The notes under the pieces are model-generated. The model had not been told where the DNA came from. It saw nothing but the letters and a program-made list of their open reading frames with translations, and ran no database searches. Below, piece by piece: positions 44,301 to 57,600 of a stretch of 64,000 bases of DNA. Source of the stretch: Ectocarpus siliculosus (lineage: Eukaryota > Sar > Phaeophyceae > Ectocarpales > Ectocarpaceae); contig FN649737.1 in the NCBI GenBank assembly GCA_000310025.1, forward strand, positions 174,014-238,013, given 5' to 3'. The translations under genes and the position numbers were made by a program. Each line of letters begins with the position of its first letter. The first letter of the stretch is position 1.

Positions 44301-47300
44301 CGGGGGAAACATTTATTCGTTACCCCACCTTTGAGGAAAGTCGCGGTACCGGAAAATATACTTCTCTGCATACTCGCTCAGGTTTTGCCACCGTTTCGAA
44401 CTGCCATGCCTTTCCAAGCTCCCAGCGAGGTACGGCTCTCTATTTCGAGCACAGCAAATGTTCTACTGTGAAAAGATGCGTGTTTGCTTCACATGTGCAC
44501 GAAAATATTGTCGTGACGTCCTTCTCGTTTTCGTCGTTGCCGTTGTCGTTGCTCGGTGCAGTCTCGACTCGACGGAGTCGACGGCCTGGTGGCGGACATG
44601 CGGAAGCAGTATGCGCGCGAGTATCGAGAGAGGCGACGCCTGTTCAACGTCGTGCAGGTGAATAAGTGGCGGCAGGTAGAGTACACACCATCCACCCATG
44701 TTCGATAAGGTTCCGAGAGAGGTCAACACCGACGGCGCAGTCACTCCTGCCGACAAAAAAAATCAAAATGCTGAGCTCATCTAGACCTTTGCCTGCTCCC
44801 CTAGCCTAGACATTGACCTCCCCTCCAAGAAAAAAACATGTCTGAGCCACCTTCGGCAACGCAGGAAGGAACGATTGGCCATCGGTGAACATTACCCCGT
44901 CCACTCGAGGGCGCGCGGTCAATGGCCTAACCGCTAAGGCACGCGAAACATGAATACTCACAACATCGCACTTGATATTTCGCGTTCATCTCGTGCACAC
45001 ACTCAGGAACTTCGGGGCAACATCCGAGTGCTGTGCAGGTGTCGGCCGCGGACGGCACACGATAAGGGCGGGGGGGTCTGCGTGTCCTTCCCAGGGGAGG
45101 GGGGCATCGAGCTGGTCAACGAGCGGGGCAAGAGAAAGGCATGGAAGTTCGACCAGGTGCCCGAAAACAATATCGTTTTGCACACAGGGAGCACAACCAT
45201 GCTGCTTCCAACGGCGGTATCCACGTTCGTGTATTTTTTTATTCTGAAAAATACCGCGGGGGTGCCTGTGTTTGACCTAGCGGTTTCGATGTTTCCGCCC
45301 CACCCTGATGTTGGTGACTCTGACGGTAGTCATTGTTCCTGCGTTCTGCGAAAACACAATACCTCAGTTTGCCCTTGTCTCGACCGCTTGTCCAGCCGGT
45401 CCAATCGCGGATGCTGTCTGGCCGGTCATTTCGGCGAAACTTCAAGCGAACAATGACCTCGTCGACAAATGCCAATAGATTGTAGCTAACGTGCTTCTAC
45501 CTATTTGGTTGCTTCTTCGCAAGGTTTTCGGGTTGGAGGCCCGGCAGGAAATGGTGTATGCCGAGGTTTCTCCTCTCGTCATCAGTGTCCTGGACGGTTA
45601 CAATGCCTGCATCTTCGCCTACGGCCAGGTAGGCCCGGTCGACGTTCTAATAAGCCGCACAAACACGACGCGCACTGTCCAAGCTGATTTCCAGCTGCGT
45701 CACCCCCCATGCCGCCATCGCCACTTGGGGGAAGACCTGATGTGCAGGAATGGGAGAGAAACCTTGGAACTCAGTCAGTAAAGACAACAATCATACCTTG
45801 TCTTGCCCTCGCAAGGGGTCGAAATTGGAGCAACACGACCGACACCATCGAAACGCCTCGAAACTACATTATGCATGCTGACCTCACCCTAAATGCCCCG
45901 GCCATGCGCGGAGGCTACATCTTTGGTTTTGTGTCCGTCTGTGCGGAAACGAACCGCTCCTTTCAGACCGGTACCGGTAAGACGTATACGATGATGGGGC
46001 CGCCTCGCGATCGCGGGGTCAACGCGCGCGCTCTGGGGGACCTGTTCTCTCGCAGTGCCGCACGGCGGGGAGAGGTGAGCAGCCGCCACGGGTAGAGGAG
46101 AGGCGCGGAGCCACGGAACGCCTGCTCGGGTTTTCGGGGACAATTTCGGAGGCTGTGTTGGGGGGAAAGTTTCACACCCTGTACAAATACAAATAACAAA
46201 TACAAATAACAGTTGCGTGTATTGGTCCAGGGCAGTATTTGCCTCCAGACAAATATTTGCGCAGGTTCTCAGGAGAGTATTTGCCTGCAGGCAAATATTT
46301 GCGCAGGTTCTCAGGAGAGTATTTGCCTGCAGGCACATATTTGCGCAGGTTCTTAAGAAAGCATTTGCCTGCAGGCACATATTTGCGCAGGTTCTCAAGA
46401 AAGTATTTGCCTGCAGGCAAATATTTGCGCAGGTTCTCAAGAAAGTATTTGCCTCTAGACAAATATTTACGCAGGTTCTCAAGAAAGTATTTGCCTGCAG
46501 CCAAATGTATTTGCGCATGCGGAGATATTGACCTCTTCGGCCTACAAGTGCGTATGCATGTATGCACAAATGAGACCGTTGAGCCCGGTGTATTTGCAGC
46601 CGCAAATATCAATGGGTGTTTTTTGGGCCCTTGATTATTCTTGTTCTTTGCCACAGGAGTTGACTCATCCAACGATACGGAATGAGTGAGATGGTGGAGG
46701 GGTTGTGGCGTCGGCGAGTGTGGCCGTGCGTGGCTGTTGTAGATTGATCCTGTTTTTTTCCACCCCGATCAACGGATATTTCAGATGCACGCTTCAGCGA
46801 TGGGCTTCTGCATTTCCGAGACCAATCTCCCATCGCATGCATGACATGCGGCTAGTCTCTCCCTCCGACTCTCCCCGCAGTACCAGCTGTTTTTTTCAAA
46901 ATATTTGTCAGGACAAATACAATAATATTTGCGCAGGTTCTCGATAAAGTATTTGCCTACAGACAAATATTTGCGCAGGTTCTCAGGAGAGTATTTGCCT
47001 ACAGACAAATTTTTGCGCAGGTTCTCAGGAGAGTATTTGCCTGCAGGCAAATATTTGTGCAGGTTCTCAGGAGAGTATTTGCCTACAGGCAAATATTTGT
47101 GCAGGTTCTCAGGAGAGTATTTGCCTACAGGCAAATATTTGTGCAGGTTCTCAAGAGAGTATTTGCCTCTAGACAAATATTTGCGCAGGTTCTCAAGAAA
47201 GTATTTGCCTGCAGGCAAATATTTGCGCAGGTTCTCAAGAAAGTATTTGCCTACAGACAAATATTTGCGCAGGTTCTCAAGAAAGTCCGCAGGTTCTCAA

Positions 47301-49863
47301 GAAAGTATTTGCCTACAGACAAATATTTGCGCAGGTTCTCTAGAAAGTATTTGCCGACAGGCAAATATTTGCGCAGGTTCTCAAGAATGTACTTGCCTGC
47401 CAGACAAATACCAAATAATGTATTTGTACAGGGTGTGGAAAGTTTGGCGCACCTTGCCGCAGCACTCTAGCTGCGTATTCTCTCCTGTGCTGATGCATCA
47501 CACGCCGTAGTCGTTTCATGTCCAGCCGCTCCCCACCGCTCGAATATAACGTCTGTCGCAAGGTTTAAAGTTAAGGTTCCAAATTTCTGTTTTTCCTGAA
47601 GAATACAGTGGTAGCACAACAATGTCGCCATCCCGCGTATGTATATGCCCCGTCATGCAAAGGAGAAGCTGTTGTGTTTGCTCAGAGCGCTTCACCGGCG
47701 ATAGGACGGTTCCGGTGATATGGTTCTACATATGTTCTTCTCCACGAAATGGATGAAAAGACATGCTTCGCATGCATGCCTATTGAGGATTTCATCATTT
47801 GTTGGAAAACGAACTTTCTCGTTGCCCTCGCCAAAGGTGGACGATACCATCACACTCTCCATCCTGGAGATCTACAACGAGCACATCCGCGACCTGCTAA
47901 TCGAAAGCACCGCCTTCGGAGGAGAGCAGCGAAAACTGGAGGCAAGCACATGGGTTTGGTGTAGAGTTGAGACGTCTCTTTCCAGCAACCGTTTGGGTCT
48001 TCGCAAGCAAGCATTGGCTAAGCACCTGTGGGTGCAATCACGACAGTAACTTGTATTCCCCGGGCACGATATTTCGACTTCACCACCAAATATCTGGCGA
48101 GAAGCTGCCACCACTGAAGTTGGTTGAACGTCGGGGGCGGTCCAAGGAGCGATAGTGTATGGCTACGTATAGTTGCCCGTCTTTGCCTGACATGTGGCAG
48201 TGCATGTTTTTTCGCTGTCGACCGGCTATCGAAAAGGTTCGGCACGGAGAACGGGGCAACCACGTCCCGGGACTCACGACGGTCACGGTTTCTACCCTGG
48301 AAGAGGTAAGGGTAAGGTTTACGATCGTAGTTGACCATCGATGCGGTTGCTGTGGCTGTTCGCTGCTTAGCATGCGTCGCTGTGGCACACTGCGGTTGAC
48401 CTTGTTGACAACTGTTTGTCCCAAATATTCGTAGCCATACATACTCGAAACCCTCGGGACAAGAGATCTTTCAGACTACAGTATCTCTCGGGCCGTGACT
48501 CCAAACCACCATTCGAATACTGCACCCCATACTCCAGGTGTTGAGGATGCTGGCCATCGCCGACAAGAACCGGGCCTCCGCCTGCACCAACCTCAACGAC
48601 CACAGCTCGCGCAGGTGCTTGCCTCTTTTTCTCCGTGTAGAACCAATTGACTTGCGGGAAAGCGCGATGGAGCGTTTCTGACTTGTCTTGAGGAATTCCA
48701 AACTCGCCGGAAACAAAAATAAGGGAATGGATGTGGATTCCTAAATAAAGGAAGCCAACAATTCTTACTTGTCGTGTTGTTTGAGAACCTTCGGTAGTTC
48801 ATGGTTCATGTTCTCATAAACAATATTCTACTCTTTGACTACATGTATGTACGAAGCATGCGACTCATCTCCCCAACTGTCACCCCCCTTGCCCGCATGC
48901 CCCCAGTCACTTGATTTTGTCTGTCAATGTGGACGGAGTGAACAGGCACACCGGGGCGACATCGGCGGGCCGATTGCATCTCATCGATCTGGCGGGGAGC
49001 GAACGCATCAGCAAGGTGTGGAACACTTCTCGGCCACTGCTACTGGTAACGTACCGTCAAACCACAGAAGAATTGCGACACAAACACTCTGTGCTCGCCG
49101 CCACCCCCAAACACTCACACGATAGCATGGTCCCAACACGAATTTTCCCCGCACATTGTTCATTTTGTGACATTTTATTTTCAAAAAAACATATATGCGA
49201 CGGCGTGTGAATGTGGTATATTCACAGTCTGGAGCGGCCGGCCAGGCGCTGAGAGAGGCACAGAATATCAACAAGAGCTTGAGTGCTCTCGGGGACGTGA
49301 TTGCGGCGAGGGCCTCCCGCCAAGGCCACGTCCCTTATCGCAACTCAACCTTGACATACCTTCTGCAGGTCAGTGATTCAATTATTCAAGTGCATGTATG
49401 AATCACCTTCTTTATTTTTTCTCGAGCCTCCGTCGGTTGTCGTCTCCCTCGTGGTTTGTGTTTAGGGAGCTGCGTATGTTCACCGAGGTGGTCCATGATT
49501 CGCGTGCGTCGCCTAAAGCATCTCTGCAGTACTATAAGTGATTAAGCAAGGGGCAACGGAGTGTGGTCTCGCCTCCATGGGCAGAGGCACCACACGATGC
49601 CTTCAAGGCATATTCACTCGAGCTCGAATCTTCCGCAAGAGCTACATACATGTACGACATTTTCCTTTGAAACTCACTCACTCGCCTACCCTGCCTCGCA
49701 GGACTCGCTGAGTGCCGACTCCAAGACCCTGATGCTCGTGTGCGTGAGCCCGGTCGTGCAAAGCGCCGAAGAGTCCTGGTGTTCCCTCAACTTCGCCGCC
49801 AGGGTTCGCACCGTGGAGCTTGGAAAGGTGTGGCAACGTGTGAAAAGATGTGAACACATGTGA
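38336..49863 (+). CDS. C-terminal-motor kinesin (kinesin-14 type)
   Basis: Exons: 38336-38422, 38879-39116, 39380-39501, 40406-40552, 40765-40908, 42064-42191, 42506-42752, 43050-43139, 43828-43992, 44562-44657, 45007-45156, 45524-45628, 45967-46074, 47837-47941, 48237-48305, 48538-48614, 48907-49015, 49228-49368, 49702-49863; about 829 aa. A minus-end microtubule motor is expected for this class. Residues to about 455 are mainly coiled coil ([39 protein letters not shown]). The neck ends [14 protein letters not shown], typical of C-terminal motors. Motor motifs: P-loop [12 protein letters not shown] (split by an intron), [12 protein letters not shown], switch I NDHSSRSH, switch [29 protein letters not shown]. 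Two introns have GC donors, and intron 13 holds a transposable element. The start (ATG 38336, 27 bp after an in-frame stop) is likely. The last border is uncertain: a GT at 49828 could lead to one more exon. Confidence 0.92.
41535..41630 (+). mobile_element. SINE-like repeat, 5' half with box B-like block
   Basis: GGGGGGTGTACTCAT, GCATGCCATGG, TTGTTAGACCATTGACCTCG and GGGACGG, then CGGGTTCTCACC, which resembles a Pol III box B about 45 bp after the box A-like GTTAGACC. It lies in kinesin intron 5. Confidence 0.6.
43993..43994 (+). other. GC splice donor, kinesin intron 9
   Basis: The exon ends GTG CAG at 43992; the intron begins GCGAGC. Phase 0 into TCT CGA at 44562. The alternative, GCT|GTGCAG six bases earlier, also keeps frame but fits the donor consensus worse. 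Confidence 0.55.
44841..44961 (-). mobile_element. SINE-like repeat, copy D (near full length)
   Basis: CTGAGCCACCTTCGGCAACG, AACGATTGGCCATCGGTG, CTCGAGGGCGCGCGGTCAAT, GGCCTAACCGCTAAGGCACG and ATGAATACTC: the reverse of copy A. It lies in kinesin intron 10 and ends 45 bp before the exon at 45007. Confidence 0.7.
46230..46515. repeat. 42-bp palindromic unit array, left
   Basis: About six to seven units containing GTATTTGCCTGCAGGCAAAT (a near-perfect palindrome centred on CCTGCAGG), then ATTTGCGCAGGTTCTCAAGA. Because 42 is divisible by 3, frames stay open on both strands without being genes. Confidence 0.92.
46922..47410. repeat. 42-bp palindromic unit array, right
   Basis: About twelve copies of GCAGGTTCTC, in the same orientation as the left array, with CTACAG/CTGCAG/CTCTAG variants in the palindrome. 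One truncated unit lies at about 47286-47300. Confidence 0.92.
47942..47943 (+). other. GC splice donor, kinesin intron 14
   Basis: The exon ends AAA CTG GAG at 47941; the intron begins GCAAGC. It joins RKLE to [13 protein letters not shown], as motor alignments expect. A GT at 47954 would keep frame but insert four extra residues (ASTW). Confidence 0.65.
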
Positions 49864-54600: not shown

Positions 54601-57600
54601 GCGAAAGAGGTATGCATCTATTCTACTGCGCACGACGCATCACCAACGTTGCAACGGCACCAACAACAACACCAAGAGCACCACCACCGCATATGACACA
54701 AGATAACACATCCCTTCGACCGATCAAGGCTCGATTTATCAACAGCAGAAAGTGTCGCAGCGCCGAAAACGGCGGCGGCGTTGAAGCCGCCTGGTCGATA
54801 GCTCTCCGAAAACGTATCGTTTCGTTCATGCATCCTCCTCGTCGTGGAGTAACCGAGCTTTGAAAATCGGTCCAGGGGGTGTGATATCTTGTGTCATGCC
54901 ACCTACGGCACTACACCCACCCGGTAGAGCTCCTCCGCCATCACGCTGTCGCCATCTCCCGCCGGCGTCGCCGCCCCCCCTCCTCCACCGTCCGCGTTGT
55001 TGCTGCTGTGCCCACCCTCCGCGTTGTTGCTGGGAGCCAGCCCCTTCGCCACCAGCCGCGTGGACATGCCGAGGACACTCGGTTGTCCCCCTAGGAGGCC
55101 TGCTGCTCCCGCTGCGGCCGCTTTCTTTACGCCCTGCCCACACAAGAAAAAAAAAAGAGAGAAAAAAAAAAAAGCCGGAAAAAAAACGAGCAAAAATCAA
55201 AACAAGGATGCAATCGGGGTGAAAATACGATACGGAACCTAGACCGAAGGTCGATTTCGGACGAAAAAAGAACGAGCAAAAATAGTACGAAGATGCAATC
55301 TGGGTGAACATACGATAGGGAACTTACATCTGAGGCCGATGTTGGACGCAAAAAAAGCGAGCAAGAATAGTACCAAGGATGCAATCTGAGTGAAAATACC
55401 ACAAGGACTCTCCATCTGAGGTCGACTTTGGACGCAACAAACTCCCTGACGTTCTTCACCGAAAATATATGAATCGAATCAACCAACCACCATTGGGTCC
55501 TCCTTCCCCCCGCGCACATGGGCTTACCCCCCCCCCTCCACCATTGGCAAAGTAGCAACGAACGATAGGCCATCAGCGACCGATGGGAACAACGCTCCGT
55601 CCTCTCGAGGACACGTGGTCGATGATCCAACAACTACCTATGGCATGCGGTAACATGAGTACGTCCCCGATCCGCATTGCCTCACCTGCTTACGCGCCGC
55701 ACACAGGTACAGCACGTTGTGCAAACACCGGCTAGCGTGGGCCAGAGAGCAACCTCCTCCAACTGCTCCTCCTCCTCCTCCTGCCGTGCTCCTTCCTCTC
55801 TTCCCCGCCGTCGCCGACCTCCCCCCCCCCGGCGCCGTTGCTGAGCCCCCGTTGCTGCTCTCCGGCGCGCCGCCGCTGCCGCCGCCCGCGGCGGCGCCGT
55901 CCTCGTCAAGAGCGGGGATAGCACCGTCTCTGTCTCGCCTGCGAGCGTGAGGACGATGCAGAAATATTATTTTTATCATACAACTCGGATGCACCAGAAA
56001 GGATCGACTGCTCGCAAAGAAGAAGTGGGTCATCGTGTTCTTGTTATGCCTTTTCTTATCCGTCTCGTTTTCGGCCCAAAAAGGGACAGCAAAAAAAAAA
56101 GCGTAAGAAGTAGCTTAGCCTGACAAGCGCACGCACGGACGGTGGTTGTTCAAACACCGGAGGCGCGTACCAGAGAAAATGCACGCAATTCAGATCGATA
56201 TCTGCACGTACAACTCTCACATCGCATTGATTTTTCTTGGCGCTGACACCCCGCCTCCTCGCTCACTACACATCCCACCCGCACCGGCCCGGTTACACAC
56301 AGTCCCCGTGCACTACGGTACCCTTTACCTGGCTGAGTCACCGCTGCCACCGCTGCCGGCGGCAACGCCTCCAGAGGAGTTCCGAGGTAGCAGCACGCGT
56401 CGGTGTTGGCCTTTTCCCACGGGGGTCCAAGGAAGCGGCCCCCTCCCCCCCGCCGCAGCATCTGGCCCCGCGGCAGCGCCGGTAGCTGACGATGGTTTCG
56501 ACCCGACTGGGCTCGTGGTGGTGAACGGGGAGCCGCTGTTGCCGACGCCGTTGCTGCTGAGGCGGTGTCGGGCGATGCTGCACTCCGCCATCCGGAGCCA
56601 TAGGTGGGGGCGGTTGTGGAACAGCAGCGCCGCGCGCTCGAAGCAACGCAGGGCCTGCGGCAGAGGAGATCAGCGCCGGGCCGGCACGCAGATTGCGGAG
56701 GTGGAAGCGTGGCATCGGGGGGGGGAGCGCAGTGTGGTCGTGAGTGGGAGGGGGTGTACTCGAGTAAACGCATGGTGCAGTCCTTAGATCATAGACTTCG
56801 TGTCCCAATTATGCAGGGAGGGAGCCGGGGCTGGTTTCCAGGCGAGCGAGCTTGAAGTGCCGTTACAGCAGTAGGCTGGGGCGACGGGAGCACATATAAC
56901 GAACCGTAGTTGCAATGATGAAAACCGGAGATGTACGTATTGCTTCTCGCGTGGTATGTGTCCCGTTGTTGCTAAGGAGTGAAATAAATGACTGCCGAAA
57001 ATCGTAATCGAGATGATCATGTCGGTTGCCTCAGCTGTCTCGGCAAGGCGAGGGAGGGGGGGTGCTATCGGGCAATCCCGTCACCAGATGCAGGCATGCC
57101 ATCACCACCGCCAAGAGTCAATATCCTTATCCTTACGACAGCACAATTCTTGTCGCTATCCTCAAGTATCACTTCCATCACTACCACCATACAACCGACA
57201 GCCACAGCAACACCGCCGCTTCATCTTCACTTTCAAGCATTGTACGTTACGCCGCCATCACCACTTACAACACCGTTCCACAAAAAACCGAAACAACATA
57301 AAACAAAGTTCACCACGACAAGGACCCAAGAAAATAAACCACGTACAACAGCCTCATGGTATCAATACAATGGACACCAACTTCCCGTAGGTTCCAAGAT
57401 ACTGGTACCCGATTTTCAAAGTCCGAATATTCTACGGGAAAGGGGATGCACAACACAACGATAGGTTGTACCAAGTGACCAACATGGGACAGATGGAACG
57501 AGACGGTTGGTCCTGACGCCGCCATTTTCAGCACCGTCACTATTACTACAGTCATACGTTTCATAATAACAGAGATTTGCCAAGAGGGTGTGTGGTATCT

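Follow-up and report, generated by a model that had tools for sequence, protein, structure and literature searches.

A transposon within a kinesin intron

We examined a 64,000-nucleotide stretch of the Ectocarpus siliculosus genome (contig FN649737.1 of assembly GCA_000310025.1, forward-strand positions 174,014 to 238,013; referred to here as the window, in whose numbering coordinates are given unless a contig is named), in which an intron of a kinesin gene holds a non-autonomous DNA transposon with terminal inverted repeats (TIRs) and a target-site duplication (TSD). The element occupies positions 46173–47437 (1,265 bp, with a G+C content of 44% compared to 53% for the whole window) and is bounded by perfect 19-bp TIRs at 46173–46191 (+ strand) and 47419–47437 (− strand), outside of which the 8-bp sequence GAAAGTTT is perfectly duplicated at 46165–46172 and 47438–47445. 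The original prediction, made from the letters of this stretch, had given exact ends with this duplication, both of which we recovered, and TIRs that are perfect as claimed but measure 19 rather than 18 bp. When the window was scanned for perfect 12-bp inverted ends lying 100–3000 bp apart and flanked by a perfect 8-bp duplication, the element was the sole match, and 50 block-shuffled windows returned none.

The host intron (46075–47836, + strand, 1,762 bp) starts with GT at 46075 and finishes with AG at 47835–47836, and separates the P-loop exon (45967–46074, + strand) from the next motor exon (47837–47940, + strand, examined to 47940), both of which match kinesins. Joining 45601–45628, 45967–46074 and 47837–47940 preserves the reading frame and gives a product which matches kinesins, best of all KIFC3 (E 2.2e-17), and this bears out the predicted location between the two exons. 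With the splice sites intact and the join in frame, the element would leave the kinesin transcript together with its intron.

Each TIR consists of an outer 14 bp, CACACCCTGTACAA, and an inner CAAATA motif, and the left TIR is followed by a subterminal stretch (46192–46233, + strand) in which an alignment of 17 elements over their first 56 bases places additional CAAATA motifs. Beyond this lie two arrays of 42-bp units (46234–46517 and 46924–47410, both + strand) separated by a middle segment (46518–46923) that is common to three other copies of about 1.2 kb in our alignments and contains no transposase. Nor was a transposase found elsewhere inside the element, whose stop-to-stop frames are repeat frames. 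It should be noted that, as 42 = 3 × 14, the arrays leave long, repetitive open frames, which reach 198 aa from stop to stop in the window element and also occur in L069–L074 and L088, and these could be misannotated as proteins. A tRNA origin was also checked, and no tRNA lies within the window.

A dispersed family with an 8-bp target duplication

The ends of the kinesin-intron element recur throughout the assembly (189.5 Mb in 492 contigs), as the original prediction had expected. The 14-bp end is found exactly at 77 places (38 on the + strand and 39 on the − strand) compared to three for the reversed control, and a 17-mer end allowing up to one mismatch has 54 matches compared to none for the control. 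Near full-length relatives of about 1.2 kb at C2, C26 and C30 are 96.4–97.2% identical to the window element, and there is also a truncated copy at C13 and a 405-bp derivative at C4 which is present again at C21. The C4 and C21 copies have common flanks on both sides, and we therefore regard them as a single insertion that was duplicated rather than as two insertions. Within the window, the repeat that flanks these two copies has an 85% identical counterpart at 54686–54897. Two single ends at C16 were set aside because the sequence they have in common extends across the presumed end in both directions, and they may belong to a duplicated stretch.

The 8-bp duplication is perfect in 13 of 32 end-paired copies, has one mismatch in four and 2–7 mismatches in 15 (this set includes two copies sharing one end and the C4/C21 duplicate). 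The 13 perfect TSDs, read on both strands, have A at position 2 and T at position 7 in 24 of 26 half-sites and the opposite base pattern in the other two, and this defines a family target pattern, NAANNTTN, which the TSD of the kinesin-intron element also fits. Four copies of a 1.7-kb sister subfamily are 99.1–99.7% identical and have four different perfect TSDs; being near-identical while their TSDs all differ, they indicate recent movement.

One of the 1.7-kb relatives, at C476, sits in a high-copy dispersed repeat, and when its flanks were joined with one TSD, 39 other places in the genome were found to run through the junction (among the best 40 of 1,575 places, the 40th being the C476 locus itself). 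Four of these paralogous empty sites were fetched, and AAGGGTTC is present once, and exactly, in three of them, while the fourth has AAGGGCTC. The single-copy empty sites anticipated by the original prediction are thus seen for the C476 relative, which has the same 14-bp ends, and it is for this copy rather than for the kinesin insertion itself that insertion with an 8-bp duplication is demonstrated.

Palindromic arrays and two end types

Array 1 of the kinesin-intron element contains seven palindromic 20-mers (consensus TATTTGCCTGCAGGCAAATA) and array 2 contains ten, with one orientation throughout. The two same-orientation 42-bp arrays had been correctly described, but with about 18 units centred on GCCTGCAGGC, whereas we count 17, and as the core is exact in only six of these it is better regarded as a consensus than as a constant sequence. 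Perfect palindromes are found in four of the 17 units. Within the arrays 14 of the 15 intervals are 42 bp, and the remaining interval, in array 2, is 62 bp owing to a 20-bp partial duplication. A role for single units as hairpins was rejected because single-strand folding of three tested units was modest at most (z = −2.13, −1.81 and −0.04). A separate tandem array of about three copies of an 85–86 bp unit is found at 55178–55441 in the window.

A comparison across the family distinguishes two end types which have the outer 14 bp in common and differ in the inner motif, ending in ACAAATA (A-type, to which the kinesin-intron element belongs) or ACAACTA (C-type). The internal motifs follow the ends: in seven A-type elements CAAATA accounts for 271 of 281 internal CAANTA motifs, and in 13 C-type elements CAACTA accounts for 236 of 250. 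This tally used 20 of 25 elements. Two duplicates were excluded (L016, of L083, and L079_568, which is nested), as were L075, whose ends read CAAACA/CAAAAA, and L077 together with its duplicate L020, in which one end is damaged. As elements of the same type are related, the counts of 271 and 236 are not independent, and demonstrate consistency rather than a number of events. The palindrome arms also follow the type, being TATTTG..CAAATA in A-type and TAGTTG..CAACTA in C-type units, and although the two units differ outside of the palindrome, both have a 42-bp period. Across 18 array-bearing elements, 164 of the 197 steps from one site to the next measure exactly 42 bp.

It could be argued that the arrays are passive, consisting of a satellite that was captured by, or grew by slippage inside, an ordinary miniature inverted-repeat transposable element. 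Tandem palindromic DNA is prone to slip, the number of sites per copy varies from 7 to 18 (with some 14–18 in long elements), and the same ends are found on some elements that have no recognised arrays. However, the 42-bp period has been kept across subfamilies with different unit sequences, the array motif is the same as the terminal motif in both types, and the A-type unit never occurs outside of element copies, and we consider passive arrays unlikely. The last of these observations comes from a genome search with a unit-specific 21-mer for which all 75 matches fall inside seven element copies, one of them truncated, with no free array of the A-type unit in the assembly, and it also gives no support to the earlier suggestion that the element might act as a satellite nursery. 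The palindrome was also found in one viral contig, in unrelated-looking coding sequence lacking the ends, and we have taken this as a chance match.

Search for an autonomous copy

An autonomous copy with the same ends, which the original prediction had proposed looking for, was not found among pairs of listed ends or among pairs of subterminal motifs. Our survey of end pairs covered 103 listed ends (with 100 of the 128 entries in one source list) and yielded 24 convergent pairs spanning 143–2,465 bp. Pairs of subterminal motifs (64 matches) are no more than 1.9 kb apart except at C71, where the distance is 6.1 kb, and the five frames we examined in relatives for a transposase have no Pfam family above the cut-off. 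An end at C13 was followed 10 kb inward (L081) and dismissed, as the second end is missing and the frames resembled host repeats.

The C71 locus contains a DDE_1 transposase and a frame with EsV-1-7. It was considered as an autonomous copy and rejected because, judged by eye, both belong to another transposon, of Tc1/mariner type, which has separate ends and is nested in an array. This nested element (L100 and L108, C71:139300–144300) interrupts the array of 42-bp units in a C-type copy and has a DDE_1 transposase frame, a separate EsV-1-7 motif frame and its own inverted ends. It is similar to the Tc1/mariner elements with an EsV-1-7 domain described from Ectocarpus in PMC12477816, according to which the motif has proliferated in brown algae and is otherwise mostly known from giant viruses. 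We found 150 scored matches to the EsV-1-7 motif in the genome (the best 150 of 880 candidates).

Superfamily affiliation

The superfamilies that come into question are KDZ, hAT and P, or one that is undescribed. The element had been called hAT-like, and a true hAT element moved by a hAT transposase of the same genome would explain the 8-bp TSD and the short TIR; the genome also has hAT genes, with 20 matches to the PF05699 dimerisation domain. Across hAT elements more widely the TSD generally follows nTnnnnAn and the TIRs generally start with CAG/TAG-type sequence. In contrast, NAANNTTN has the opposite bases at positions 2 and 7, the ends start with CACAC, and none of the PF05699 matches lies between pairs among the listed ends. 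Hermes shares the nTnnnnAn preference (PMC10368747, PMC2803484), and its clusters of subterminal motifs (PMC10368747) are a further likeness to the family described here. Taken together, these observations do not support the hAT assignment, which we regard as doubtful. Of the nearest hAT matches among the ends listed, one lies 7.7 kb away from a C9 end, on its outer side, and the other is 760 bp outside the C476 copy, the latter being a hAT-like frame of 459 aa (L089, C476:1104600–1107600).

It is possible that these are non-autonomous KDZ elements (Zisupton/Dileera-like) moved by a giant KDZ transposon of the kind described in Ectocarpus. KDZ TSDs measure 7–8 bp, with 8 bp in both Zisupton and Dileera, and Kyakuja termini are CA..TG (PMC12730594), and our elements also end in CA..TG with an 8-bp TSD, a likeness to the described features rather than to KDZ terminus sequences. 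KDZ elements are reported to make up 1.80% of the Ectocarpus genome compared to 0.05% for hAT (PMC12477816), and the same source describes 8-bp TSDs for Zisupton and many non-autonomous DNA transposons among the KDZ and 'DNA/Unknown' families, to which we liken our family by description and not by sequence. The KDZ profile PF18758 has no matches in the genome, but as it did not match any control genome either, this result is uninformative.

MULE elements have TSDs of about 9 bp. The family TSD is 8 bp and none of the 45 matches to the MULE domain PF10551 falls between listed end pairs; the nearest among the ends listed lies 19.7 kb to the inner side of a C9 end that has one mismatch and no partner. 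CACTA/EnSpm elements, with TSDs of about 3 bp and CACTA-like ends, differ from the 8-bp TSD and CACAC ends found here, and Foldback elements of the Tetris type differ from a 19-bp TIR with two arrays that are direct and not inverted. No tested family can therefore be tied to the ends, as hAT and MULE matches lie outside of the listed pairs and KDZ and P have none, and perhaps the family represents a different superfamily that makes 8-bp TSDs, whether P-like, Novosib-like or as yet undescribed, which we put forward tentatively. For a P-type element, the profile PF21787 found nothing in the genome, but again matched no control genome, and the Galileo TSD consensus GTATTAC differs from ours. Neither the CACACCCTGTACAA string nor a family with these features was found in the papers searched, although absence from the open literature is weak evidence when Repbase and the Ectocarpus library are outside the comparison, and the family may be listed in either under an unclassified name.

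A predicted role for the arrays

We consider that the kinesin-intron element and its relatives are probably cut-and-paste transposons moved in trans, with arrays that are predicted binding sites for the transposase (or a helper) matching those at the ends. Cut-and-paste transposition would duplicate the 8-bp target, a duplication demonstrated for the family, and the transposase would be supplied in trans, as it is encoded by no copy we found. The outer 14 bp may serve as the constant end for recognition and cleavage. The CAAATA or CAACTA motifs of the inner end, subterminal stretch and arrays are read as the putative site to which the transposase, or a helper, binds, because the motif changes together in the ends and arrays. 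One dimer would sit on each 20-bp palindrome, and as the 42-bp step corresponds to about four helical turns, successive dimers would be placed on one face of the DNA. The array would then concentrate transposase beside the ends, with the four-turn step favouring cooperative loading.

Several points weigh against this interpretation. No transposase using these ends was found, and the binding is deduced from the sequence. The matched change of motif may represent one or a few events, and array homogenisation by slippage or unequal exchange could even out the units without selection, though this leaves the match with the terminal motif unexplained. Long arrays are not strictly needed, as among the elements analysed five small or aberrant ones (L077, L078, L083 and L085, and the duplicates L016/L020) possess the ends and yet lack any recognised site. 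Finally, the 15 of 32 paired copies without a clean TSD include C2 and C30 from among the relatives of about 1.2 kb.

The closest functional parallel would appear to be Hermes, whose transposase binds a pair of quasi-palindromic subterminal repeats (STR1–STR2 at the left end) cooperatively and with strict phasing, and which also makes an 8-bp TSD (PMC10368747). Hermes has a 17-bp TIR and numerous short motifs in its subterminal regions (17 at one end and 14 at the other). It differs in having a known transposase and an nTnnnnAn TSD and, as described there, in lacking an extended and regular array of 42-bp palindromes (PMC10368747). Subfamily-specific subterminal motifs are found in CACTA/Spm elements such as the soybean Tgmt*, for which coevolution with a TNPA-like binder has been considered (PMC2613891), but Tgmt* has CACTA ends and a 3-bp TSD where our family has CACAC ends and an 8-bp TSD. 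Tandem repeats inside the ends of non-autonomous copies are also reported for Galileo (P superfamily) and Tetris in Drosophila (PMC4168063, PMC4079207). These sources report extra transposase sites in the Galileo repeats, and for Tetris give TSDs of 8–9 bp and no autonomous copy. The Galileo and Tetris repeats differ in being about 140 or 220 bp and lying inside long inverted repeats, and those of Tetris have seeded free satellite arrays (PMC4168063, PMC4079207), of which we see none for the A-type unit.

More speculatively, the two end types may record a coordinated switch in the specificity of a candidate, possibly undescribed, transposase, in which one base of the hexamer (CAAATA or CAACTA) was changed in the ends, subterminal stretch and array, with no change to the outer 14 bp, the 42-bp period or the NAANNTTN target, and for which the arrays would act as a one-face loading scaffold. 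Most transposon families hide how a transposase binding site changes while mobility persists. Here the ends and array sites have apparently changed together, and would provide a natural before-and-after pair for the coevolution of a transposase and its site, with the regular four-turn palindrome array offering a testable model of cooperative transposase loading.
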